The notes below the pieces were generated by a model. It saw only the letters and a program-made list of their open reading frames with translations. It searched no databases and was not told the DNA's origin. This document shows, piece by piece, positions 3,905-17,879 of a stretch of 44,112 bases of DNA (the stretch's first letter is position 1; every line of letters begins with the position of its first letter). Source of the DNA: Oscillospiraceae bacterium (GTDB taxonomy: Bacteria > Bacillota > Clostridia > Oscillospirales > CAG-382); contig JAFLUP010000013.1 of the NCBI GenBank assembly GCA_022508745.1, positions 1 through 44,112 on the forward strand, in the 5' to 3' direction. The translations under genes were made by a program, and so were the position numbers.

Positions 3905-3951
3905 ATAGGATTGCCGAATAACGGCAAATCATTTTGAAGGGAGTACAGAAA

Positions 3952-4404
3952 ATGAAACATTGTGCAAAATGCGGGAAGGAACTGCTGGACGAAGCGGTCA
4001 TCTGCCCGGGCTGCGGCTGCGCGGTAGAAGGGGGCCATGCGGCGCAAAGGGGGAAAACGGAGGACGCCATGGCAGGCTACGAAAAGGCGGCAAGGGGAGC
4101 CGGTATCACAAACATCATCGGTTTTCTCCTTTTGGCGGCGGGAGTCGTCTGTGGCGTGTTTCTTCACGTTGCGGTCGGTTCGGCGCTGTGCTTGATTGCG
4201 GAAATTATTGCGTTATTGGCGAACACAAAGGTGAAGAAGCTGTTCAAGAGCAACAATGCGAGTATCACCGATAAAAAGGCGTATCAGGCAGCCGAGAAAC
4301 AGTTGCTAAAGGAATTGAAAGCCAAATATTTCGCGTTCAAGCTCTCGATCGTGCTGGCGGTTGTCGCTTTGGTGGGCGTCATCGGGTTTGCGCTTTTGAT
4401 TTAA
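3952..4404 (+). CDS. Zinc-ribbon domain membrane protein
   Basis: MKHCAKCGKELLDEAVICPGCGCAV plus two TM segments. Confidence 0.8.
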   Translation: MKHCAKCGKELLDEAVICPGCGCAVEGGHAAQRGKTEDAMAGYEKAARGAGITNIIGFLLLAAGVVCGVFLHVAVGSALCLIAEIIALLANTKVKKLFKSNNASITDKKAYQAAEKQLLKELKAKYFAFKLSIVLAVVALVGVIGFALLI

Positions 4405-4420
4405 GGAAAGGAGGCATACA

Positions 4421-4912
4421 ATGAAACACTGCACGCATTGCGGGAAGGAGCTGCCGGACGAAGCGATCGTCTGCCCGGGCTGCGGATGCGCTGTCACCCC
4501 GGAGCAGGGCACACAGAAGAAAAAATCGCACCTCAAACTGATTCTGATTATTGCGATCGCCGCTGTGTTGGTCGCGGGCGCCGTGGTCGGCGGTATCTTT
4601 TTGCGGAATCATCTCCGCGAAGAAAAGGTAAAGGATCAGCTTGCCGGCAAAACGTTTCGTTATGAGAGTTTGAGCCTCTATAGCTATAGGTGGAAAGAGA
4701 TTTCGTTCGATGAGAACGCACAGTGCAAATATACGTATTTTTATTCCAGTGTCATGAGCGAACCGGAGACGTATTCTCGGTCGTACGAAATTGAATTTAA
4801 GAACGGCTCGACGTTTTTGATCATGGGCGTGGATACATACGAGGTTCGGTATAATAGCTACGGCAAAGTGGACAACCTTTACGATGTGAACGACAAAACC
4901 GTATACGATTAA
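4421..4912 (+). CDS. Zinc-ribbon domain membrane protein
   Basis: MKHCTHCGKELPDEAIVCPGCGCAV, a paralogous N-terminus, followed by a TM segment. Confidence 0.8.
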   Translation: MKHCTHCGKELPDEAIVCPGCGCAVTPEQGTQKKKSHLKLILIIAIAAVLVAGAVVGGIFLRNHLREEKVKDQLAGKTFRYESLSLYSYRWKEISFDENAQCKYTYFYSSVMSEPETYSRSYEIEFKNGSTFLIMGVDTYEVRYNSYGKVDNLYDVNDKTVYD

Positions 4913-5132: not shown

Positions 5133-5161
5133 TTGCAAAACGGAATCGGATATGATACAAT
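5133..5161 (+). promoter_or_regulatory. Putative promoter of the sortase/SipW operon
   Basis: TTGCAA (5133-5138)-17-TACAAT (5156-5161). Confidence 0.6.
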
Positions 5162-5265
5162 ATCCACACCTATAGTCGACAACTATGGGCAAAATTGTCC
5201 AGCGCTTTTTAAGCGACCGCGGCATCGGACGCCGCAACTCCTTTTTGGAAGATAGGGGACCGGTT

Positions 5266-6111
5266 TTGAAAAGAAAAATCCTTCTGATCTTCTTCATTTT
5301 ATCCTTGCTGGTATTCATCGGTTCCGCCATAGGGATCGGCGTTGTGCTGCATCGGTATCATCAGGCGGACGTTCTGTATGACGATTTGCAGGACCGTTAT
5401 GTCACCTATGTGGATCCCTCCTCCCGGGAAGAATCGGCGCAATCGCGGCCGCCCCAGAGCGGCGAGCCTTCCGGCGATCCCTCCGGCGGCGAAGCATCTG
5501 CCGGTTCTGTGGACCCGGTCGAGCCGGAGCCCGAGCCCGAATGGCCGCCCATCAGCGTGGATTTCGGGGCGCTTTTGGAGCTCAACAGCGATGTGGCTGG
5601 TTGGCTCTACTGTGCAGACACTCCCATCAACTACCCCGTGATGTGGTCCGCCGATAACGAGGATTACCTGCACCGGGATCTGAACGGGAAGTACCTCTAC
5701 TCCGGCACGCCGTTTGTGGATTATCGCTGCTCGGCAGTGGGGACGAACCGCAACCACATCATCTATGCCCACAACATGAAGAACGGAACCATGTTCGGCA
5801 CGTTGGGCGAGTACAAGGAGCAAAGCTACTACGACGCGCATCCTGTCCTGTATTACCTTACGCCGGAACACCAGTATAAGATCGAGCTGTTCTCCGGGCT
5901 TGTGACCAAAGCGGATGCAGAGGTCTATAACGTGCAGTTCCAAAGCGAGGAAGCCTTCGAAGCCTTCTTGCAGAGCCTGAAGGAGAATTCCACCTTCCGT
6001 TCCGACGTTACCGTCACGGCGGAGGACTGCATCGTCACTCTTTCCACTTGCTCGTATGAGTTCAACAACGCGAGATATGTCGTATTCGGGAAGCTGATCA
6101 AGCTGCGCTGA
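5266..6111 (+). CDS. srtB: Class B sortase (start could be the upstream ATG at 5185)
   Basis: N-terminal TM; NSDVAGWLYCADTPINYPVMWSADNEDYLHRDLNGKY; catalytic H in IIYAHNM; catalytic C in VTLSTCSYEF. TTG start has an AGGGGA RBS. Confidence 0.9.
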   Translation: MKRKILLIFFILSLLVFIGSAIGIGVVLHRYHQADVLYDDLQDRYVTYVDPSSREESAQSRPPQSGEPSGDPSGGEASAGSVDPVEPEPEPEWPPISVDFGALLELNSDVAGWLYCADTPINYPVMWSADNEDYLHRDLNGKYLYSGTPFVDYRCSAVGTNRNHIIYAHNMKNGTMFGTLGEYKEQSYYDAHPVLYYLTPEHQYKIELFSGLVTKADAEVYNVQFQSEEAFEAFLQSLKENSTFRSDVTVTAEDCIVTLSTCSYEFNNARYVVFGKLIKLR

Positions 6112-6162
6112 CAAGCGGCGACCGATACCGGCGTGACCGCATATCTTTCTAAAGGAGGACGC

Positions 6163-6936
6163 ATGGCAATGTCGCAGCCCCAAAAGCAACCCTCTACGAC
6201 GCGCCATAAGGTACTGACGGCGCTGGGGATCGCCCTCTGCGTGATCCTTGTCCCTTTGCTGATCATCAACGTCACGTTGATTATAAAGAGCTACGTCAAT
6301 CCCGATGAAGTGCCTACGCTGGGCGGGGTCGCTCCCCTCATCGTACTGACCGAATCCATGAAACCGGGCATCCAACCCGGGGATCTGATCTTCGTGAAAT
6401 CCATTGAAGGGAGCGAGGTAAAGGAAGGGGACGTCATCGCCTTCTTCGACCCGGCTTCCAAAGAGAACAGCATCCTGACCCATAGGGTCAAGGAGATTCG
6501 CGAGGTGGACGGCACCATCTACTTCACCACCTGGGGCGACGCCAACGGCGGCGCGGTGGATCCCCAGCAGGTTGCAGCAAGCGCACTGGTGGGCATTTAT
6601 ACGAACTTCCGCATCCCCTTTGCGGGGCGCGTTGCCATCTTCATGCAGTCCACGGCGGGTCTGGTGATCTGCGTGTTCCTCCCGCTGGTGCTGCTGATCG
6701 GCTGGGACATTTTCCGGCGCAGACGGCATGAAAAGAAAAACCAGCAGGACACCGAGGCGCTCCTTGCAGAATTGGAAGCACTGAAAGCCGCAAAAGCGGC
6801 GGAGGCTTCGAAGGAGCCTGCCGCTGAACCGGCAGCTGCCGAATCGGAAGCTGCCGAACCGGTAGCGGAACCTCCCGCGGAAGCGCCTACCGAACCGTCT
6901 TCTGCATCGGTTCCCACCGAGGAGAATCCTCAATAA
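6163..6936 (+). CDS. sipW: SipW-type (ER-type) signal peptidase I with long A/E/P-rich cytoplasmic tail
   Basis: TM; VLTESMKPGIQPGDLIFVK catalytic Ser box; ILTHRVKEI; TTWGDANGGAVDP; second TM; low-complexity tail. Confidence 0.88.
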   Translation: MAMSQPQKQPSTTRHKVLTALGIALCVILVPLLIINVTLIIKSYVNPDEVPTLGGVAPLIVLTESMKPGIQPGDLIFVKSIEGSEVKEGDVIAFFDPASKENSILTHRVKEIREVDGTIYFTTWGDANGGAVDPQQVAASALVGIYTNFRIPFAGRVAIFMQSTAGLVICVFLPLVLLIGWDIFRRRRHEKKNQQDTEALLAELEALKAAKAAEASKEPAAEPAAAESEAAEPVAEPPAEAPTEPSSASVPTEENPQ

Positions 6937-6944
6937 TCCACGGT

Positions 6945-7020
6945 ATTCTTCCCCCGGAAAGCCACGGCGGGGATGAATATAAATTTTCCCTGAGGGGCTT
7001 TACCCTTGTGGGGGAAGAAT
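6945..7020 (+). promoter_or_regulatory. Intercistronic long stem-loop upstream of the TasA-like gene
   Basis: ATTCTTCCCCC (6945-6955) / GGGGGAAGAAT (7010-7020), 11-bp perfect; inner AAAGCC (6958-6963) / GGCTTT (6996-7001). Confidence 0.7.
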
Positions 7021-7057
7021 TCAAAGCCGAAAGGCGAAATTTGAAAGGAGAAAACTC

Positions 7058-8047
7058 ATGAAAAAGAACAAAATGATGAGAATTGCCAGCGTTCTTCTGA
7101 TCGCGGTTCTTCTCTCTACCTGTGTGATCAGCGGCACGTTCGCGAAGTACGTGACCACCGGTGAAACCAGTGATCATGCACGCGTCGCGAAGTTCGGCGT
7201 GGTCATTGATGCAGAGGGTAGTCTGTTTGCCAATAGCTACGTGAATGTTGAGGATGGCAATACTCCCGGTGATAAGAACGCGGATAAAGCGCCCTTTACG
7301 GATCTGACCGTCGAATCCTCTAATGTGGGAAAAGAAGGCGAAATTAGCCAGCTGGTCGCACCTGGCACGGAGAATACTGAAGGCATTACCTTCTCCATCA
7401 CCGGTACTCCCGAAGTTGATGTCCGGATTAACATCAATTTCGACGAAGACAGCATGCGTGATGTTTTCCTTGCCGCGAGCGCTGGTCTGCCTGACATGAC
7501 TACCAGCAAGAAGAACGCTACCTTTGATTTGGATGATGACTATCATCCCGTCGTTTTCACCGTGACCGGTGATTTTGTTGAACATCAGTGGCAGGCTATC
7601 AAAAATTCTGCTGGCTTTGATTCTTTAGCAGCAAAGGAAAAGCAGACTTCTATTTCTGGTTCTATGGCGACCATCGTCAGCATCCTGGAAGAAGTGTTTG
7701 CCGGCGAAGATGACGAGGGCATCTATGTTGACGCAAACACCGATCTCGCTGAAGTGTTTGGTAGCTTTACTCTGACCTGGAAGTGGGCATTTGATGGTGC
7801 GCAGAAGCTGGATGACGTTAAATTTAACGCTAAAACGGTCGACAAGGCAGACACCCTGCTGGGCGATCTTGCAGCCCGTGATTTCGGTGATTTCACTTAC
7901 GAAGTCTACAAGAATGACGGCGAGACCTTGACCGATAAGTCCGAGGCGTTTATTGGCCTTGCGGCTGACGAGGAAGATTGGACGGCTGGCGATTACAACT
8001 TGGTTGTCTCCCTCAAGCTCACCCTCACCGTCACGCAGGTTGACTAA
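7058..8047 (+). CDS. TasA/camelysin-like SipW-dependent secreted fibre subunit
   Basis: Signal MKKNKMMRIASVLLIAVLLSTCVISGTFAKYVTTGETSDHARVAKFGV, typical of SipW substrates; beta-rich secreted body; AAAGGAG RBS. Confidence 0.75.
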   Translation: MKKNKMMRIASVLLIAVLLSTCVISGTFAKYVTTGETSDHARVAKFGVVIDAEGSLFANSYVNVEDGNTPGDKNADKAPFTDLTVESSNVGKEGEISQLVAPGTENTEGITFSITGTPEVDVRININFDEDSMRDVFLAASAGLPDMTTSKKNATFDLDDDYHPVVFTVTGDFVEHQWQAIKNSAGFDSLAAKEKQTSISGSMATIVSILEEVFAGEDDEGIYVDANTDLAEVFGSFTLTWKWAFDGAQKLDDVKFNAKTVDKADTLLGDLAARDFGDFTYEVYKNDGETLTDKSEAFIGLAADEEDWTAGDYNLVVSLKLTLTVTQVD

Positions 8048-8051
8048 TTTA

Positions 8052-8184
8052 CAGATTACGCTAATCTGACTTAAGTCTACTTAACCGAACCGCGCGGCCG
8101 TATGTGGCTGCGGCTGCGCGGCTTCGGCGTTTCAGAAAGCCCGAACGCCCAAGAGTATGTTCGGACTGTCTGAAATTCCGAAGC
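8052..8184 (+). promoter_or_regulatory. Intercistronic multi-stem RNA element
   Basis: CAGATTA-cgc-TAATCTG (8052-8068); CCGCGC/GCGCGG (8090-8121); three-helix stem GCTTCGG/CCGAAGC, TTTCAGA/TCTGAAA, CCGAAC/GTTCGG (8121-8184). Confidence 0.65.
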
Positions 8185-8216
8185 ACAACCATCATCACCG
8201 AAAGGAGGAGCCGGAA

Positions 8217-9212
8217 ATGAAAAACGTTCGCAAACACGGAACGGCAGGGATCGGCATGCTTGTTGTGATCCTTATTTTGTGTAATCTGGCATGCCTCACG
8301 GTGATGTGCAGTAGGGTGATCGGCTACACGCAGGCAAAATTTGTCAACGTCATGCCCATCGACCAACAGACTGTGATCGGGGCGGAGCCGCCGGCAGGAA
8401 CCGATTCTTCCGCCGAAGCGGATCCCTCACGAGCGGATTCCTCCGCGGAATCCTCTGTCGAGGCTCCCATCGTCAACCCCGCTCCCGGCGATGCTTCCTC
8501 CGAATCTTCCGACGAACCCTCCTCCGGCGGGCAGACCATGCAGGCGCACCCGGAGTTCCACATGGAACACGACGTGGAGATCTTCAAGTTCTCCTACGAC
8601 GAAACCGGGAAGATCACGGTCGTCGGGATGGAAGGGAATGAGGATCACCTCATCGCCCCCGGCACGTCCAATCTGTACCAATTCACCCTCGCCAATACCG
8701 GCGACGTGGCGCTGGATTACACCCTGACCATGGAAGCCTACGTGACGGGAACGGATCTGTGGATCCCCGTCAACGCCCGCGTGTGGGATTACACCAACAA
8801 GTATCTGGTCGGTTCTGCCGAGGAAATGCCGGACGTCATGGAGCTGAACACCGTGGATGAAAAAGGTGTGCTGGGCGCCGGGAAATACGCCGTCTACAAT
8901 CTGGAATGGGAATGGCCCTTCGAGCGGGAAGACGAAAACGGTGAAATCGCCGCCAACGATCAATACGACACCATGCTGGGCAACCTTGCGGTGGATGAGG
9001 AGCTGGTGCTGCATATTGTCATCCGCACCACCGCGGAGTATGATGAGGATCCCGATCACCAGGGCGGGCTGGATAAGCCGCCCCAGACCGGCGACGACGC
9101 GCCCATCGTGATCCTTTGCGTCCTGTTCGGCGCTTCCTTTGTGGGGATCTGCGCCATGGGGATCGTACTCATCCTTTCCAAACGCAAAAAGGATCATGCG
9201 GAACAAAAATGA
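8217..9212 (+). CDS. Cell-wall-anchored SipW-operon protein with PPQTG sorting signal
   Basis: N-terminal TM, Ser/Ala/Glu-rich linker, FTLANTGDVALDYTLTMEAYV TasA-like motif, C-terminal DKPPQTGDDAP + TM + KRKK. Confidence 0.8.
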   Translation: MKNVRKHGTAGIGMLVVILILCNLACLTVMCSRVIGYTQAKFVNVMPIDQQTVIGAEPPAGTDSSAEADPSRADSSAESSVEAPIVNPAPGDASSESSDEPSSGGQTMQAHPEFHMEHDVEIFKFSYDETGKITVVGMEGNEDHLIAPGTSNLYQFTLANTGDVALDYTLTMEAYVTGTDLWIPVNARVWDYTNKYLVGSAEEMPDVMELNTVDEKGVLGAGKYAVYNLEWEWPFEREDENGEIAANDQYDTMLGNLAVDEELVLHIVIRTTAEYDEDPDHQGGLDKPPQTGDDAPIVILCVLFGASFVGICAMGIVLILSKRKKDHAEQK

Positions 9213-9766
9213 GTAAAGCCAAAAAGCGGTTAAAACTGGTGGGACGGGTGGCGCTGATCCTGTTGATCAGCCTGCTTGTGGGCTTCCGGCTGTATAGCTG
9301 GAACGCGCGGGCGATCGGTGGGAACCTGATGCCCATGCCCTTCGGTTGGGGCGTTTCCGTGGTGCTTTCCGGCAGCATGGAGCCGGCGCTCTCGGTGGAT
9401 GATCTGGTGCTCCTCCATTCCGTGGAGACATACGAGGTAGGGGACATCGTGGTGTATCAGGAAGGCACGTCCTCCCTTGTGATCCACAGGATCGTCTCCA
9501 TAGACGGCGAAACGGTCGTCACCATGGGGGATAACAACGACGCGCCGGACGATCCCATCAACATGAAAGCCATCAAGGGAAAAGCGGTGGCGAGCATCCC
9601 GTTCGTGGGGATCGTGGTGAATTTTCTGCAATCCACGTTGGGATTCCTGCTCATCCTCATCGCGGCGATCCTGCTGTTCGAGCTGCCTTATCTGATGCAG
9701 CGCAAAAAAGCGACGGACGAACAGGAAAAAATCAAAGAGGAAATCAGAAAGCTGAAAGGCGAATAA
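9209..9766 (+). CDS. SipW-type signal peptidase I (second copy)
   Basis: VVLSGSMEPALSVDDLVLLH; LVIHRIVSID; VTMGDNNDAPDDP; C-terminal TM; ATGA overlap with the preceding CDS. Confidence 0.88.
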   Translation: MSKAKKRLKLVGRVALILLISLLVGFRLYSWNARAIGGNLMPMPFGWGVSVVLSGSMEPALSVDDLVLLHSVETYEVGDIVVYQEGTSSLVIHRIVSIDGETVVTMGDNNDAPDDPINMKAIKGKAVASIPFVGIVVNFLQSTLGFLLILIAAILLFELPYLMQRKKATDEQEKIKEEIRKLKGE

Positions 9767-9802
9767 AGGGTCGCCAGCGACCCAAGAAAGGAGAGGTTGA
9801 CC

Positions 9803-10426
9803 GTGAAAACCGCAAACAACGCGAGGTACACAAAGCGTCCCGCCGGTGGTGTTCTGTATTGGGCGGTCAGCGTTCTTCTCGTGCTTACCTTGTTTACCAC
9901 GTGGATGGCCTGCGGGCTGTTCGCGAAGTATCTTTCCACCAATGACGAGCTCGACTCTGCGCGCGTTGCCGCTACGGGGGTCAAGACGTTTGAATTGCTG
10001 GAGCATAAGGTGAAAAACGTGTCGGAAACGGATCCCACCGCCGTGTATGAGTTCGTGAAAGACGAATTCACTTCGAAAGGCAACACATACGACACGGTTC
10101 CCCCCGGGTATGATCTTCCCAAGGATCCGTTCGTCCGGTTGGAGCTTGTGGACGCCGAGGTGGACTATCGGCTGTACGTCCGCGTGACCAAATCCGAGGA
10201 TTTCCCGGATACCATTGATGTGAAGCTGCGGGACTGCTGGCAGCCGGTTCCGGGACAGAAAGACGTCTATGTTTACGACGGATATTTCGACGCGGGGCAG
10301 AATTACGACTGCACCGGGGACAAAGTGATCTATATTTTGGACAATAATTTGCTCTACGTCAGCCAGTATTACGCCGGGGAAACCTTTGACCTTTCCTTCG
10401 AGGCGTGGCTTGCGCAGGTGGATTAA
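9803..10426 (+). CDS. TasA-like/SipW-dependent secreted protein
   Basis: TM then MACGLFAKYLSTNDELDSARVAATGVKTFEL; GTG start after GGAGAGG; C-terminus ...AWLAQVD. Confidence 0.7.
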   Translation: MKTANNARYTKRPAGGVLYWAVSVLLVLTLFTTWMACGLFAKYLSTNDELDSARVAATGVKTFELLEHKVKNVSETDPTAVYEFVKDEFTSKGNTYDTVPPGYDLPKDPFVRLELVDAEVDYRLYVRVTKSEDFPDTIDVKLRDCWQPVPGQKDVYVYDGYFDAGQNYDCTGDKVIYILDNNLLYVSQYYAGETFDLSFEAWLAQVD

Positions 10427-10462
10427 CGGCATATCCGAATGATTCGGAAAGGAGTTGGTATA

Positions 10463-11089
10463 TTGAAGCGAAAAACGATACGGCGTTCGTGGCAGGTGCT
10501 TCTGGTGGTCGCTTTGGTGCTTGTCACCGCGGTCGCAGTGCCCGTTTTTGCCCGCTATATCAAGAAAACCAACATGGTGACAAATACCTTTTCTCCTGCC
10601 GATACCAGTGATCCCGTGATCGAAGAAGATTTCAAGGACAACGTAAAGAAGGACGTGTGCGTTTCCGTTGGCGAATTGAAGTATCCGGTTTTTGTGCGCG
10701 TTTCGATCGTTATCACTTGGAAGGATGCCAACGACATCGTTCATTTCCAAAAACCGGTGAAAGACACCGACTATGAGCTGGTGCTTGGTGAGGACGATTG
10801 GGACTACAACGCGAAAGACGGATATTATTATTACAAATATCCCGTCCCCAGCAAGGGAAAGACCACGGCTCTGATCAAATCCTGTACGCAGCTTCCGGAC
10901 GCTGAACCGCCGGAGGGTTATACCTTAAGCGTGGAAATCATCGCCCAGACCGTACAAGCGGTAGGCTTTACGGACGGGGACGGATCGGATCCCGATACGG
11001 AGATTCCCGCTTATCAGGACGCCTGGGAAACCTCCTGGACGCCGTCAGAAAGACCCGGTACCGACGAGGGAGAGAATGTAGAGCCGTAA
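10463..11089 (+). CDS. SipW-operon secreted subunit (TasA-like)
   Basis: LKRKTIRRSWQVLLVVALVLVTAVAVPVFARYIKKTNMVTNTFSPAD; VFVRVSIVITWKDANDIVHF; GGAAAGGAG RBS before TTG (ATG alternative at 10439). Confidence 0.68.
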   Translation: MKRKTIRRSWQVLLVVALVLVTAVAVPVFARYIKKTNMVTNTFSPADTSDPVIEEDFKDNVKKDVCVSVGELKYPVFVRVSIVITWKDANDIVHFQKPVKDTDYELVLGEDDWDYNAKDGYYYYKYPVPSKGKTTALIKSCTQLPDAEPPEGYTLSVEIIAQTVQAVGFTDGDGSDPDTEIPAYQDAWETSWTPSERPGTDEGENVEP

Positions 11090-11126
11090 CTCCCATCGCG
11101 TCCCGTACCCGTAAGAAACCGATGAG

Positions 11127-11170
11127 AGCGCCTGACGCAGAGAGCATCTCCGCGAAGGCGCTTTTCTTTT
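11127..11170 (+). terminator. Putative terminator of the sortase/SipW operon
   Basis: AGCGCCT...AGGCGCT followed by TTTCTTTTT. Confidence 0.55.
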
Positions 11171-11693: not shown

Positions 11694-14600
11694 TTATTTG
11701 CCGTTATCCAGCGCCTTGCGGGGAACCATGATGATCGCATACAGACCGAACACGGAGAGCAGGATCAACGCCGCCCAGAGGGCGAAGTTGCTGTTGTCGC
11801 CGGTTTCCGGAGAATGCGGATCGTCCGGAGTGCTGGGATCGTCAGACGTGCCGGGATCGTCCGCGCCGGTTGCGGGAATATCCTTGACGTCCTTGGTATC
11901 GGTGTAGGTCTCACCGTTGAATTCCACCGTCGCGGTGTAGGTGGTGGTGCCGTCCTCGGTTTCCGTTGCGGGCGTCTTCACTTCGCTTGTGACGGTCGCA
12001 TCCACCGTTTCGGTGTGGGTCTCGTCATGCTCGCAGGTGAAGGTGGCCTTTGCGGTCTTACCGTCTTCGGACCAGGTGAATTCTACCTTCCAAGCATGGC
12101 CGGTAGCGGGGATCACGACGGTCTGGAAGGTCTCGCCGCAGTCGTCGCAGACCAGGATCACGGAGCCGTCCTCTTCGCAGGTGGCTTCGGTGACGGTCGC
12201 TTCGCTGCAAACGTGCTCGCCGGTAGCGGGAATCACTTCCGTGTACAGGAGTTCGTTGCAGACCTTGCAGTACACTTCAGCCTTGCCGTCCTTCGTGCAG
12301 GTCGGGAGCGTAACATCCACGCGGTACTCGGTGTGACCGGTTGCGCGGACGTCAACGACGTCCTTCGTGTCGGTGAAGGTCTGGCCGTCGTACTCAACCG
12401 TTGCAGTGTAAGTCGTCGTGCCGTCTTCCGTGCAGGTCGGCCCGTTGCCTTCCTTCACTTCGCCGGTAACGGTCGCTTCCACGGTTTCGGTATGCTCGGT
12501 GTTGTACTCGCAGGTGAGGGTAGCCGTTGCGGACTTGCCGTCTGTGGACCAAACGAACTCTGCGGTCCAGGAGTGGAATTCCACTTCGGTTTCCGTGGTG
12601 CTTTCGGTCTTGTCGGTGCCATCCTGCAGGACATCCAGTGCGATGGATGCCAGATGCTTGCCGGCTTCCTTGTCGATGGAGAATACCACCGTCAGGACGA
12701 CCGTATCCGCTTCATCCTCGTCGGCGTAGCCCACATGGATGGTGCCCGCTTCTTCGTCAACTACATAGCTGACGAGCAGGTCGCCTTCCTCTGCGGATTC
12801 GAAGTGCATGATTTCGGGATCGTAGTTGAGAATGAACTCGCCGTTGGTGCTTGCGGAAGCATAAACGGGAACGGTCACGGTGCCTGCTTCAGTATCCACA
12901 ACGACGCCGTTGGTCTCTGCCGCGTCATCGTCCGTCTCGGGGATCTCGATGCTGTTGAGGCTGCCCATGATCGCGAGAGCTCTCTCGGTGGAGATCGTCT
13001 CGGCGGAGGAAGCGTCGACCTTCACGGTAACGGTTTCCATGGAAACCTTTTCCTTGTCGGCCGCATTGTCGATGGTCTCGTTGGTGTGGACTTCAAGGAA
13101 CAGACCGGGCCATACGCCGTCGCCGAAGTCGCCCAGGTAGTCCATGGTGCGGTAGAAGGAGCCCGCATCGCCATCCTCCAGCAGGACGCGGATGACTTCG
13201 TTGGTGTCACCGGTCATGAGGGAGATGTAGAGGGCGCCGTCATCGCCAACCACCATGTTGGAGTAGCTTTCGCCGTTGTATCCGACGTAAGCGAGGTTGA
13301 TGCCGAGGGGATACATGGTCATCAGGAAGCCTGCGCCTCCGGAAACCATGTCGCAGCGCAGCGCGTAGCTCTGGGTAGCGCCCGTATACAGGATCCACAA
13401 CATGTAATCGCCGGAATATCCGCTATCTTCCCATGCCTCGTTCTGAACAGCCAGCAGCGTGGGATAACCGTAGGTTCTGGCAGCCCAGTAGGAGCTCAGG
13501 TTCCAGCCGGAGAGCTGCGGATCGAAGGGATCTTCTTCCATCAGCAGGTAGGACTGACCCTTCGCGGTCCAGAAGAGAGCCTCGTCAGCCGAAGCATAGG
13601 CGATATCGTTGATATAGAAGCCGGTGTAATCGGTACCGCTTGCGCTCGCGATCACTTTGCCGTCGTAGCCCACCTGATAGATGGTGTAGTCTTCATCCAA
13701 CGTGAAGTAGCTGTTGCCGTCGATGGGAGTCACAGCCACAGGATAGATGGTCTCGGACTTCTCGTCGGGCTTGTAGGACAGCATGCCTTCATCGAAGTTG
13801 TATTCGAAGAACTTGGCATAGCCGTTTTCGTCGCCCAGAACGCCGGTAGCCGTGACCGGGATACCGTAGACATTGACTTCGCAGGTAGCAGTCAGATGCT
13901 CGCCCGCTTCGTTGGTGCCAACGGTGGTAGCGGTAATGGTTGCATCGCCCTTGCCCACAGCGTTGATCACGCCGTTTTCGTCCACGGTCACGATGCTCTC
14001 GTCGCTGGAGGACCAGGTCACACCGTCGGCGCCGTCAACAAGGTTGTAGGGACCGACAACGGCTTCCAACTGGTCGCTGCTGCCGATGATCATGGAAATC
14101 TCGTCGTAGGAGAGCTCGATGCTGCCCACATATTCGGTGAACGACACGTCACCGACGGGGAAGCGCAGGGAAGTCATGTTGCCGGAGGCGTCGGTGACTT
14201 CCAGACGGTAGATGCTGTCGGGCAGAGGTTTGTCGGTCAATACGTTGCCGCCAAACCGCAGGTCGCCGCCGTCAAAGGTAACCGTGGCAGACGTGCCGGA
14301 AATGGTCAGGGTCTGCACGGGGTTGGACGTGCGGTTGACTACATAGTTCTCATCATAAAGAACCGCTTTGGCAAGACCCTTGTTGTCGGTGAGTTCTGCA
14401 GTGAGGATACGGCCCTTGCCGGTTTCATCGGTCTTTGCGGTGGTTTCCTCGACGCTGACGATCACCGGGGGTTCCTGGTCAAGCTCCAGCTTGGTGGTCA
14501 GGATCGCGCCCTTGCCCAGCTCGCCGTTGGAGTTGTCGCCGTCGGTCAGCGCGTCCCAATCGTAGCCGTACTGCTCATAGTACTCGGGAGCCAGGATCAG

Positions 14601-17600
14601 GGAGATGTAAACGGTATCCACATCGGGATCGACGTTCTTCATGGCAGCCGCCCAGTTGACAGTCGTCTCCAAGGAGAGGTTGTAAATCAGGCTGCCGCCG
14701 CTGACGCCGATCCAGAAGCCGGCGTTTTCGTAGTAGAGCACGCCGTAGCCCTGACCGAAGTCTTCGGAGCGCCACAGAAGGTTGCCCTTGCTATCCGTGA
14801 CCTGCACAACGCCGTTGCCGTAGTTACGGATGGGGGTGTAACGGTAGCTCAGCGTGGACTCGCCGATGCCTGCCAGCGTGCCGTCGGGCATCAGGTTGGC
14901 CTTCGCAGGCGTAGCAGCGTAAGCGCCCTTGTAGACGATGTTGGTCACAGCGAGGTTGTAAGTGGTCTGACCTGCGCCCCTGAAGGTGTAGGGGTAACGG
15001 CCGTCGACCGGCTTGGAGTTGCTGTACGTGTTGTACCAATCGGTGTTGCTGCCGATCTCATACATGGAAGGATCGGTCCAGTTTCCGTAGTAGCCCAGCA
15101 TGGGGATGGTGAGCTTCGGATACATGGTGCCGTCGTCGGATCTGGGCGTGACGTTGACGAACGCTTCCACATAGAAGCCGGTGCCCTTCTTCGCTTCGTC
15201 CAGCGCTTCAGCGGCGTCCTTGTCCAGAACGATCTCTGCGGTGACGTGGGTGACGTCCTGCACCACGACGGTGGGCTGGAGCAGGTTCAGCAGCTCGTGA
15301 ACGTCATGGGTGTCCACGCAGAAGTTGCCGTCCACATCCAGCTGGAATTCTTCGTAGCCTTCGATCTCGGTGCCAAGGATGATGTGATCCAGCAGGAGCT
15401 GTGCGTCATCTTCATCCACGTCGCCGTCCTGATCGAAGTCGTAGCGGAGGTCGAGGACCTCATTGGAAACCACAACGTCTGCGCCCTTGAAGAAGACAAG
15501 CGCGTCCAGCGTGTCGGTGTAGTAATCCATGAAATCGCCGTAGCCCTGCACGGAGAACAGAGCCTGGGTGAACACGTCCGCCGAGAGGGCGTAGGTGTAG
15601 GAACCCGGGACCAGGTTGTGAATGTCGAATTCGAAGGTGAAAACGCCGGTACGGTCGGGATCATCGCCGACTTCGGCTTTGACCTTGCCGTCGTCCTGAC
15701 CGGTCACGGTGATGTAAACAGGGGAGGAAACTGCCTTCTCCACATTGGCAAGGCCTGCGCCCTGCTGCAGCAGAGAGTAGTAGTAGCCGTACTCATCCTT
15801 CATGGGTTCGGCAGTCGCCATCAGCAGGCTCATGGTAAGCGCGCGGGTGGTGATGTCGGCGGGAATGATGAGATCGGGGTTGGTGCGCAGGTACTGCTGC
15901 ACCACAGCGGACATACCCGTAACCTGAGGAGCCGCCATGGAGGTACCGCTCATGAGCTCGTAAGCCGTGCCGCTGAGGTCCGCACCGTTGACGGAGTAGA
16001 TGCTGCCGCCGAAAGCGGAGATCTCCGGCTTCAGGGACAGGTTACCGGGAGCACCCCAGGAGCTGAAGGAGCTCATGGTGTAGTAGCCGCTGTTGTAAAG
16101 GTTCATGCTGGAGGCGCTGACGGTCATCTCGCCCACGATGTACTGCACACCGCTGGCGGTCGTCTTGACCTGACCGGCATAAGCTGCCCAGATCGCGTCG
16201 GCGATGGGCTCGTTCACGCTGGAAACAGGAGCGTCGCCGGTGTAGCCGTCCAGAACGGGGATCAGACCGGGAGCTTCGCCCGGGTTGGGCACGTTTGCGA
16301 TGATGGCACCGATGGCGCCGTTGTCAGATGCGGCCTGCGCCTTGAGGCTGAAGTTGATGGAGCCGCGCCATACGATGGCGACTTTGCCCTTCAGCTCATC
16401 GGCAAGCTCTGCAAGCACGGTGGGTTCCTGCCCTCTGCTTGCCTTGGCAACCATGAGGAAGGGAACCTTGGTGCCGCTGCCGTCACTGGAGGTATCCAGC
16501 GAAGCGAAGGAAGCCAGATCGGTGCGGGGATCATCCTGGAAAGCACCGTCGTTGAAGGAGGAAGAGATGTCACCGACAGAGATGCTGCTGCCGGCAAAGC
16601 CATCGTTGTCCACGGAAGCGACGGTGAAGGAGTTGGTGTAGGAACCGGACTCGCCGTCGAACTGATAGCTCACGCCGTCGCTGTACAGGTACCCGTTGTA
16701 GGTGTTGTCTGCCCAGGAACCGGCGTTACCGGCGGAGTACACCACCACGGTGTCGCAGCCGGTCAGGATCTTCTGGATCCCCACATAGGGGCTGTTGGGA
16801 GCAGGAGTGGCAAAGCCGGGAAGCGCCATACCCAGAGACAGGTTCACAGCGTCGGCGCCGAGAATGATGGCGTCCTCGATGGCTGCAACGCAGTCGGAAT
16901 CGTAAGCGCCGCCGTTCTTGCCGAAGACTTTCATGATCAGGAACTGCGCGTCGGGCGCGTTACCTGCCACCATGACGGTCTTGAGGGCTTCCTCGTACTT
17001 GCCGTCGCCGTCGGTGTCGACGTAACGGTTTGCAGCCGCGATACCGGCGACGTGGGAGCCGTGCTCGCCTTCCCCGTCGTTATCGTGGGTGATGTCGTCG
17101 CTGTCATCGATGTAGTTCCAGCCGAAGGGAACCTTCTCGTTGTGATAGAGACCTGCGGCGGTAGCGCTGTAGCTGCCGGTGACGTTCAGCCAGCCGGAAG
17201 CGGCAGCAGCGATAACGTCTTCTTCGGTGAGCTTGAGGTTGCGCTCGCCGTCCTCATCAACAGCGTAAAGGAACGCGCCGTTGTCGAAGGATTGATGGTC
17301 AAGGTCAAGACCGGTATCGATGATGGCAATCAGAGTGCCTTCACCGGTGTAACCGGCATCCCATGCATTATGTGCGCCGTGCAGCTCACCTGCAACTGCC
17401 ATGTTCGGATCCAGCGTGCCGCCGACGGAAACTACGTCCGGCGCATACTGTCTCTCCACATACACGCTCTTGACGCCGGGGACAGCCTCAATAGCAGCAA
17501 TGTCGCGATAACGGACATTTGCGGAGATGATGTTGGCAGCCAAGGTCAGGTTCCAGGCGACATCCAGCTTCCCGCCCAGCTTGCTCTCAATGGCAGCCTG

Positions 17601-17879
17601 AACGGTGGCCTGCTCCGCACGCAGCTTGTCGCGATACTTGATCGCGCCTGCGTTATCGGCGATGTCGATGGTGGAAAAGCCTGCCTCGAGGGTGGAAGCC
17701 TTGTCCAGAACGATGGAGACGCGGACGATTTCGTCAGCATCCACAATCACTCTGTCCGGGCCGGCAGCTTCGGCCTTGAACAGATCGTTCTTAGCCATCG
17801 TAGGAATGACCAGCGAGAGTGCCATGATGAAGCACAGCGCCAGTGCGATCCAACGTTTGAATGATTTTGGAGTACTCAT
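11694..17879 (-). CDS. Multidomain cell-wall-anchored S8 (subtilisin-like) protease with PA, dockerin, Big_2, cohesin-like and repeat modules
   Basis: Signal peptide; triad motifs LIAIIDTGLD, HGSHVAGIAA, MSGTSMAAPQVTG; dockerin DFDQDGDVDEDDAQLLL...DVDGNFCVDTHDVHELL; Big_2 VTWSSSDESIVTVDENGVINAVGKGDATITATT; SPETG + TM C-terminus. Confidence 0.92.
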   Translation of the reverse strand: MSTPKSFKRWIALALCFIMALSLVIPTMAKNDLFKAEAAGPDRVIVDADEIVRVSIVLDKASTLEAGFSTIDIADNAGAIKYRDKLRAEQATVQAAIESKLGGKLDVAWNLTLAANIISANVRYRDIAAIEAVPGVKSVYVERQYAPDVVSVGGTLDPNMAVAGELHGAHNAWDAGYTGEGTLIAIIDTGLDLDHQSFDNGAFLYAVDEDGERNLKLTEEDVIAAAASGWLNVTGSYSATAAGLYHNEKVPFGWNYIDDSDDITHDNDGEGEHGSHVAGIAAANRYVDTDGDGKYEEALKTVMVAGNAPDAQFLIMKVFGKNGGAYDSDCVAAIEDAIILGADAVNLSLGMALPGFATPAPNSPYVGIQKILTGCDTVVVYSAGNAGSWADNTYNGYLYSDGVSYQFDGESGSYTNSFTVASVDNDGFAGSSISVGDISSSFNDGAFQDDPRTDLASFASLDTSSDGSGTKVPFLMVAKASRGQEPTVLAELADELKGKVAIVWRGSINFSLKAQAASDNGAIGAIIANVPNPGEAPGLIPVLDGYTGDAPVSSVNEPIADAIWAAYAGQVKTTASGVQYIVGEMTVSASSMNLYNSGYYTMSSFSSWGAPGNLSLKPEISAFGGSIYSVNGADLSGTAYELMSGTSMAAPQVTGMSAVVQQYLRTNPDLIIPADITTRALTMSLLMATAEPMKDEYGYYYSLLQQGAGLANVEKAVSSPVYITVTGQDDGKVKAEVGDDPDRTGVFTFEFDIHNLVPGSYTYALSADVFTQALFSVQGYGDFMDYYTDTLDALVFFKGADVVVSNEVLDLRYDFDQDGDVDEDDAQLLLDHIILGTEIEGYEEFQLDVDGNFCVDTHDVHELLNLLQPTVVVQDVTHVTAEIVLDKDAAEALDEAKKGTGFYVEAFVNVTPRSDDGTMYPKLTIPMLGYYGNWTDPSMYEIGSNTDWYNTYSNSKPVDGRYPYTFRGAGQTTYNLAVTNIVYKGAYAATPAKANLMPDGTLAGIGESTLSYRYTPIRNYGNGVVQVTDSKGNLLWRSEDFGQGYGVLYYENAGFWIGVSGGSLIYNLSLETTVNWAAAMKNVDPDVDTVYISLILAPEYYEQYGYDWDALTDGDNSNGELGKGAILTTKLELDQEPPVIVSVEETTAKTDETGKGRILTAELTDNKGLAKAVLYDENYVVNRTSNPVQTLTISGTSATVTFDGGDLRFGGNVLTDKPLPDSIYRLEVTDASGNMTSLRFPVGDVSFTEYVGSIELSYDEISMIIGSSDQLEAVVGPYNLVDGADGVTWSSSDESIVTVDENGVINAVGKGDATITATTVGTNEAGEHLTATCEVNVYGIPVTATGVLGDENGYAKFFEYNFDEGMLSYKPDEKSETIYPVAVTPIDGNSYFTLDEDYTIYQVGYDGKVIASASGTDYTGFYINDIAYASADEALFWTAKGQSYLLMEEDPFDPQLSGWNLSSYWAARTYGYPTLLAVQNEAWEDSGYSGDYMLWILYTGATQSYALRCDMVSGGAGFLMTMYPLGINLAYVGYNGESYSNMVVGDDGALYISLMTGDTNEVIRVLLEDGDAGSFYRTMDYLGDFGDGVWPGLFLEVHTNETIDNAADKEKVSMETVTVKVDASSAETISTERALAIMGSLNSIEIPETDDDAAETNGVVVDTEAGTVTVPVYASASTNGEFILNYDPEIMHFESAEEGDLLVSYVVDEEAGTIHVGYADEDEADTVVLTVVFSIDKEAGKHLASIALDVLQDGTDKTESTTETEVEFHSWTAEFVWSTDGKSATATLTCEYNTEHTETVEATVTGEVKEGNGPTCTEDGTTTYTATVEYDGQTFTDTKDVVDVRATGHTEYRVDVTLPTCTKDGKAEVYCKVCNELLYTEVIPATGEHVCSEATVTEATCEEDGSVILVCDDCGETFQTVVIPATGHAWKVEFTWSEDGKTAKATFTCEHDETHTETVDATVTSEVKTPATETEDGTTTYTATVEFNGETYTDTKDVKDIPATGADDPGTSDDPSTPDDPHSPETGDNSNFALWAALILLSVFGLYAIIMVPRKALDNGK

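Follow-up and report, generated by a model that had tools for sequence, protein, structure and literature searches.

Within a 44,112-nucleotide stretch of DNA from an Oscillospiraceae bacterium (CAG-382; assembly GCA_022508745.1, contig JAFLUP010000013.1, positions 1 to 44,112, + strand; hereafter the window), we find a conserved operon that, with a probability of about two in three, makes a TasA-type fibre rooted in the cell wall, the wall-anchor subunit P0004 serving as a base fixed by the class B sortase SrtB and the messenger RNA (mRNA) of the subunit P0003 being protected by RNA structures. The open reading frames show seven tightly spaced, co-directional genes on the + strand (5185-11089): a class B sortase, a SipW-type signal peptidase, a secreted subunit, an anchor with a PPQTG motif, a second SipW-type peptidase, and two more secreted subunits. 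All seven had been named in an earlier interpretation of the DNA letters alone (the sequence-only reading), and all are present, the sortase and peptidases matching TIGR03064 and TIGR02228, respectively. Two features escaped that reading: the operon contains two strong RNA structures, and it lacks a giant gene found between the last two genes in relatives. Relative to it, the case is now stronger for a conserved two-SipW, anchored-subunit system with paired RNA elements, and weaker for the sortase, which is optional and has a precedent.

The conservation of the operon as a real unit is supported by two surveys. Whole-genome searches of 63 family members found relatives of P0004 adjoining sipW genes in several genomes, and a scan of one genome per species yielded 80 further loci, mostly from rumen or gut metagenome-assembled Oscillospiraceae, Ruminococcus and Lachnospiraceae, with a few cultured strains (Ruminococcus flavefaciens XPD3002, Pseudoruminococcus massiliensis and Aequitasia blattaphilus). 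The order sipW1 - P0003 - xPxTG anchor - sipW2 - P0006 - (giant protein) - P0007 recurs in approximately 70 Oscillospiraceae and Lachnospiraceae loci, sometimes with two copies of the P0006-type gene. Where enough flanking sequence was available, sipW1 lay beside the anchor in 58 of 59 loci and sipW2 in 63 of 67, while the giant protein was found in 35 of 47 and a P0007 homologue in 24 of 47. The giant proteins are secreted, 1400-2300 amino acids long, and carry Listeria-Bacteroides repeat, SpaA-like and DUF5979/DUF7601 domains; by their sequences they look like adhesins. Six of them (loci L037, L038, L041, L046, L050 and L055) share a C-terminal WSWR...WLNG/WLSG motif and have no sorting signal. 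In the window the gap between P0006 and P0007 is only 36 bases, and we rejected a relocation of the giant protein elsewhere in the same genome, as just one weak 66-residue match was found.

Both peptidases, SipW1 (6163-6936) and SipW2 (9209-9766), pass the model TIGR02228 for archaeal/ER-type signal peptidases, the class that includes SipW (97.8 and 83.2 bits against a cut-off of 51.85), although neither reaches the Bacillus SipW equivalog model NF046067 (94 and 81.5 bits against a cut-off of 190). For both copies, the catalytic Ser and the catalytic His are each present in 113 of 113 aligned rows and the Asp is also kept; that is, a Ser-His pair replaces the Ser-Lys dyad. In the 57 loci that have both genes, the two copies split 57/57 into two clades with a single change on the tree, on a branch with SH-like approximate likelihood ratio test (SH-aLRT) support of 99. 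A single supported branch separates SipW1 from SipW2; the double arrangement is therefore of long standing, and the two copies probably serve different clients. The signal sequences of P0003 and P0006 end in SG(T/L)(F/Y)A|KY, with an aromatic second residue past the cut. The abstract of PMC10269814 reports that an aromatic residue at this position makes TasA a poor LepB substrate and a client of SipW. Among the anchors, this signature occurs in 16 of 56, so most anchor loci are without it.

The anchor P0004 (8217-9212) was claimed in the sequence-only reading to be the base or anchor of the fibre, and its kinship with the subunits supports the view of a subunit-like anchor. Its C-terminus has the layout of a sortase substrate, with PPQTGDD (the PPQTG motif at 9078-9092), a hydrophobic stretch and a KRKK tail. 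The score against the sortase B sorting-signal model TIGR03063 is just below the cut-off (17.9 against 18.15), and 6 of 58 relatives match that model at E 0.01. The sorting signal is nonetheless confined to this protein type: 57 of 66 anchors have one, as against 0 of 69 P0003 homologues and 0 of 31 P0007 homologues. In the anchor family A5, to which P0004 belongs, the TG is more than 90% conserved, and many anchors have a PP or SP motif. The SrtB of Clostridioides difficile has the specificity (S/P)PXTG, cutting PPKTG and SPQTG and not LPETG or NPQTN (PMC4155245), a motif that the PPQTG of P0004 fits. With signal peptides removed, the core of P0004 is homologous to P0003 in profile-profile comparison (E 9e-19). 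Anchors share the subunit core, but none of 66 has the ARVA segment located after the P0003 signal. With a sorting signal on the anchor only, the fibre is likely to be non-covalent and to be rooted through a single anchored subunit; a protein with the shared core and no ARVA segment is, we infer, what the base of such a fibre needs, since it could accept a strand and not donate one.

To examine TasA kinship, we built a profile from the Bacillus subtilis TasA sequence (which matched PDB 8aur over 233 residues) and Clostridia PF12389 relatives, and ran profile-profile comparisons with signal peptides removed and reversed profiles as decoys (decoy E 0.0086-0.82). The kinship is well supported by sequence for P0007 (10463-11089; family E 3.5e-13, decoy 0.29) and P0006 (9803-10426; E 1.9e-6, decoy 0.44), and suggestive for the P0004 core (E 1.2e-4 over a short stretch). 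For P0003 (7058-8047) the connection would be indirect, through its homology to the N-terminal part of P0006 (E 3.6e-13); a P0003-TasA similarity at E 4.6e-5 obtained with signal peptides included was rejected, as it vanished once they were removed. In other words, the description of the subunits as TasA-like stands directly for P0006 and P0007, tentatively for P0004, and not for P0003 itself. None of the four secreted proteins matched PF12389 (TasA/camelysin) at the Pfam gathering score. P0003 and P0006 matched no Pfam or NCBIfam family above cut-off, and NCBIfam holds no model for the relatives of either. P0007 weakly matches the BsaA model TIGR04090 at E 1.2e-5 (25.2 bits, below the cut-off of 60), as do 17 of 32 of its relatives at E <= 0.001. 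The P0003 family has 65 members with a conserved A-K-Y...D-x-ARVAK-x-G segment. AlphaFold models of P0003 (predicted local distance difference test score 82.7) and P0004 are both usable and beta-rich, and Foldseek gave P0004 a weak, non-significant match to an archaeal bundling pilus (probability 0.90, E 0.04). Direct PDB sequence searches with the P0003, P0004 and P0007 profiles returned chance hits only. Homologues of P0003 and P0006 end almost exactly in a conserved Q(I/V)D.

The sortase P0001 (5266-6111) matches TIGR03064 at E 2.8e-57 (193.8 bits against a cut-off of 153.75) as well as SrtB structures in PDB, and its catalytic residues are all present (YAHNM for His, TLSTC for Cys and NNARY for Arg) in alignment with solved SrtBs. 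The TTG at 5266 is its likelier start because it is preceded by the ribosome site AGGGG, while the ATG at 5185 has none. Linked, co-directional srtB genes occur upstream of the operon, as in the window, in L057, L058 and L125, and downstream in L077, L085, L122, L129 and L037; in all, 7 of the 72 loci have one, as do the window and one further relative. Given the amount of sequence fetched, 0.69 linkages would be expected by chance against the seven observed (P 8e-6), all of them co-directional. The sortase is an optional extra, yet enriched well above chance. Counting of loci rejected the idea that it is always syntenic with the operon: approximately nine in ten relatives carry an xPxTG anchor but no linked sortase, so that the term 'dedicated', applied to the sortase in the sequence-only reading, fits only some lineages. 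The gene-order conservation proposed there as a check likewise holds for sipW1-subunit-anchor-sipW2, but srtB is syntenic in few loci. The sortases of the window, L057 and L058 form a supported clade (100/99). Next to the operon, and convergent with it, lies a gene for a 2061-residue S8 subtilase (11694-17879, - strand) with PA and Big_2 domains, which ends in an SPETG signal (11736-11810); its SPETG fits (S/P)PXTG, and SrtB might have this protease as a second substrate.

Between sipW1 and P0003 lies a region of unusually strong folding (z -3.34), which contains RNA element 1 (6944-7021), whose GCCAC loop lies at 6961-6965. Alignment with relatives gave the shared pattern UAUUCUUCCC...GCCAC...GGGGAUGRAUAUA...GGGGAAGAAUA, in short and long forms. 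All 45 sense matches of a covariance model in relatives (45/45) lie directly before a P0003 homologue, mostly just past the sipW1 stop, and in 63 family and 199 order genomes, some of which coincide with loci of the one-genome-per-species scan, every sense match at E <1e-3 precedes such a homologue. Across 32 sequences, 95.4% of cells pair, and 9 of 14 pairs have two-sided changes, which amount to 24 cells; shuffles gave 6 and slid controls no more than 7. The frequent G-U pairs favour an RNA over a DNA operator. At the gathering score, Rfam 15 has no match at either RNA element in the window and 11 relatives; matches below the cut-off in 6900-7100 were dismissed as being at chance level. The long form of element 1 (L071, L072, L076, L102, L122 and others) adds an apical domain in which the segment AUGCCGCGGCAUUCUCUGCGG...GCCCGGUA is highly conserved. 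Just 5' of the P0003 ribosome site is a small GCCGAAAGGC hairpin (7026-7035), also seen in L057, L061 and L073.

The gap on the other side of P0003 (8052-8200) folds strongly (z -5.84). It holds RNA element 2, a hairpin (8090-8121) with a GUGGC loop at 8104-8108, followed by a second, longer hairpin (8122-8183) that has similar long counterparts in relatives. Of 54 loci, 37 carry in this gap a hairpin whose loop is GUGG(C/U), where dinucleotide shuffles give 0.2. Perfect stems of at least 6 bp occur in 45 of 70 loci, with 6-17 pairs (mostly 9-17) and 35 different stem sequences around the same loop, which indicates that the stem varies while the loop stays. The GUGGC of element 2 is exactly complementary to the GCCAC of element 1, and the base past GCCAC and the base ahead of GUGGC form G-C in 22 cases, A-U in 10, G-U in 5 and A-C in 0. 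This covariation of the loop flanks was matched in 0 of 20000 label shufflings, a procedure that ignores ancestry. The elements also co-occur: 42 loci have both, 13 and 3 have a single one, and 12 have neither (p 1e-4). The simplest reading is a kissing loop across the P0003 cistron. We propose, tentatively, that the two loops, approximately 1.1 kb apart, kiss across the P0003 frame, holding the cistron as a stable unit and so setting the stoichiometry of subunit, peptidase and anchor. Keeping the subunit mRNA abundant would be the likely purpose, by analogy with the cip-cel operon of Clostridium cellulolyticum, where, according to the abstract of PMC4423207, intercistronic stem-loops set subunit stoichiometry through selective RNA processing and stabilisation.

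Taken together, the operon probably works as follows. SipW1 and SipW2 would release the secreted subunits, P0003 being the probable bulk subunit and P0006 and P0007 minor or accessory subunits of TasA/BsaA type. Since these carry no sorting signal, they are expected to join non-covalently, and may do so as TasA does, by N-terminal strand donation. P0004 has the same core, lacks the N-terminal segment common to P0003 and P0006, and carries PPQTG; for those reasons it would receive the first subunit, and SrtB, or another sortase in most relatives, would attach P0004 to peptidoglycan. The paired RNA structures flanking P0003 would protect that segment of the mRNA, giving far more subunit than peptidase or anchor.

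Several results weigh against this account of a wall-rooted fibre. P0003 has no significant similarity to TasA in profile-profile comparison without signals (E 0.076). The structural comparison with TasA folds that the sequence-only reading had suggested gave the beta-rich models described above, but a Foldseek search of PDB with P0003 and P0004 returned no match at E <= 0.001 and no confident TasA hit. The pattern used to search for loci selected for D-x-ARVAK-x-G, so that the conservation of that segment is partly built in. Because the genome itself encodes five sortases and 13 LPXTG-type matches over cut-off, the pairing of SrtB with P0004 rests on adjacency. In C. perfringens, where srtB sits 5' of sipW-bsaABCRSD, its deletion altered neither polymer nor pellicle (PMC7395162), a result that, by analogy, is more consistent with rooting than with polymerisation. 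Finally, a tree-aware analysis of the loop covariation left 5 independent contrasts, of which 1 was concordant, 4 had no difference in the second loop, and none was opposed.

If P0003, P0006 and P0007 were loosely secreted matrix or adhesion proteins that do not polymerise, and P0004 an independent wall protein, the missing structural and direct TasA match of P0003 would be accounted for; we regard this as unlikely, given that P0006 and P0007 are homologous to TasA and BsaA, which polymerise (PMC7395162), that anchor and subunit share a core, and that the gene order is conserved. Far less probable is a covalent pilus in which the class B sortase polymerises pilins like Spy0129 of Streptococcus pyogenes, with the SipWs in the place of SipA. 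A class B pilus polymerase encoded with the signal-peptidase-like SipA is known (PMC3019223), and the same genome has a separate cluster (L054, contig C1, 3053-12893) of a SipW, a Cna_B protein, a sortase, a P0007-like protein and an LPETG protein, which by its gene content resembles a sortase-type pilus locus equipped with a SipW of its own. Such a pilus, however, needs several secreted proteins with sorting signals, and the operon has only P0004; no protein of the window has a Cna_B or SpaA domain, most relatives lack a linked sortase, and both SipWs keep their catalytic residues. It is also doubtful, though somewhat less so than a covalent pilus, that SrtB has nothing to do with the fibre and acts on different (S/P)PXTG proteins, for instance the adjacent S8 protease, P0004 being anchored otherwise or not at all. 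The scarcity of linked srtB among relatives, the SPETG signal next door and the C. perfringens deletion would agree with this; against it stand the excess of co-directional linkage, the clustering of operon-linked sortases on the tree (2 changes compared with 6.0 when shuffled), and the PP at the motif in 5 of 7 linked as opposed to 14 of 65 unlinked anchors (p 0.012). As for the RNA, element 1 might instead be a ligand-sensing riboswitch or a protein-binding leader, with the GUGGC hairpin an ordinary 3' stabiliser and the loop match otherwise caused. Its elaborate form, and the extra domain of the long forms, would suit this explanation, which we hold to be rather improbable; unlike those of a general metabolite switch, the sole convincing matches in whole genomes searched sit at the operon, the loops are complementary over 5 bases plus a covarying flank, and both elements co-occur.

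The signals at the ends of the operon are less distinctive. The promoter that the sequence-only reading called clear, a sigma-70-like candidate from a consensus scan (TTGCAA-17-TACAAT, 5133-5161), is present, but 'clear' is too strong, as the window has 3 promoter-type sites against 3.6 expected in shuffled sequence, which is not above chance. The terminator also named there is plausible and probable: a stem-loop followed by a U-rich tract (11125-11170, z -2.95). Elsewhere in the window, two adjacent genes for small zinc-ribbon membrane proteins (CxxCGKEL...CPGCG) lie upstream of the operon (3934-4912), and a tRNA gene lies at the contig edge (29-101).

In summary, this gene set, widespread in gut and rumen Clostridia, probably builds wall-rooted protein fibres, and the flanking RNA structures may set the amount of subunit made. 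In Bacillus and C. perfringens, fibres of the TasA/BsaA type are known mostly as a matrix that is not wall-sorted. If our account is true, two specialised SipWs with a sorting-signal anchor represent a distinct fibre design, with a non-covalent shaft and a covalent root, that is widespread in rumen and gut Oscillospiraceae and Lachnospiraceae. Whether distant RNA segments pair within one operon can be tested directly on the two RNA elements, which also bear on how a single transcript yields one subunit in large excess over the proteins encoded beside it. We found no description of the two-SipW, anchored-subunit unit or of its RNA elements in the open-access literature searched. The sequence-only reading had supposed that the combination of sortase, sipW and TasA-like genes might be undescribed as well; however, the C. 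perfringens locus, where srtB neighbours sipW and a TasA-like gene, is already a precedent for a sortase next to SipW.

Known systems each share part of this arrangement. The S. pyogenes pilus, with Spy0129 and SipA, also combines a class B sortase and a signal-peptidase-like protein in a surface-fibre operon, but its pilins are covalent and have sorting signals (PMC3019223). The C. difficile SrtB is likewise of class B with an (S/P)PXTG motif, but is a single housekeeping-like sortase with scattered substrates (PMC4155245). For the C. cellulolyticum cip-cel operon, the abstract of PMC4423207 does not mention two conserved, mutually complementary loops on either side of a single cistron. The archaeal bundling pilus is a TasA-related fibre according to PMC10151520, although it has no sortase and no sorting signal. 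In Bacillus cereus, sipW-tasA/calY with CapP also comprises two TasA-family subunits and a wall-associated partner, in a system described as sortase-independent (PMC13082335). The B. subtilis tapA-sipW-tasA operon has SipW-processed subunits of the TasA superfamily and one dedicated assembly-partner gene; it differs in having one SipW, no sortase and no sorting signal, and its TapA is a chaperone-like initiator that is not wall-linked (PMC10151520). The C. perfringens system (PMC7395162) has one sipW and a two-component system, with no anchor subunit with a sorting signal described, but it resembles the operon in the window in the position of srtB 5' of sipW, in its SipW-dependent secreted matrix protein and extra secreted proteins, and in the likeness of P0007 to BsaA.

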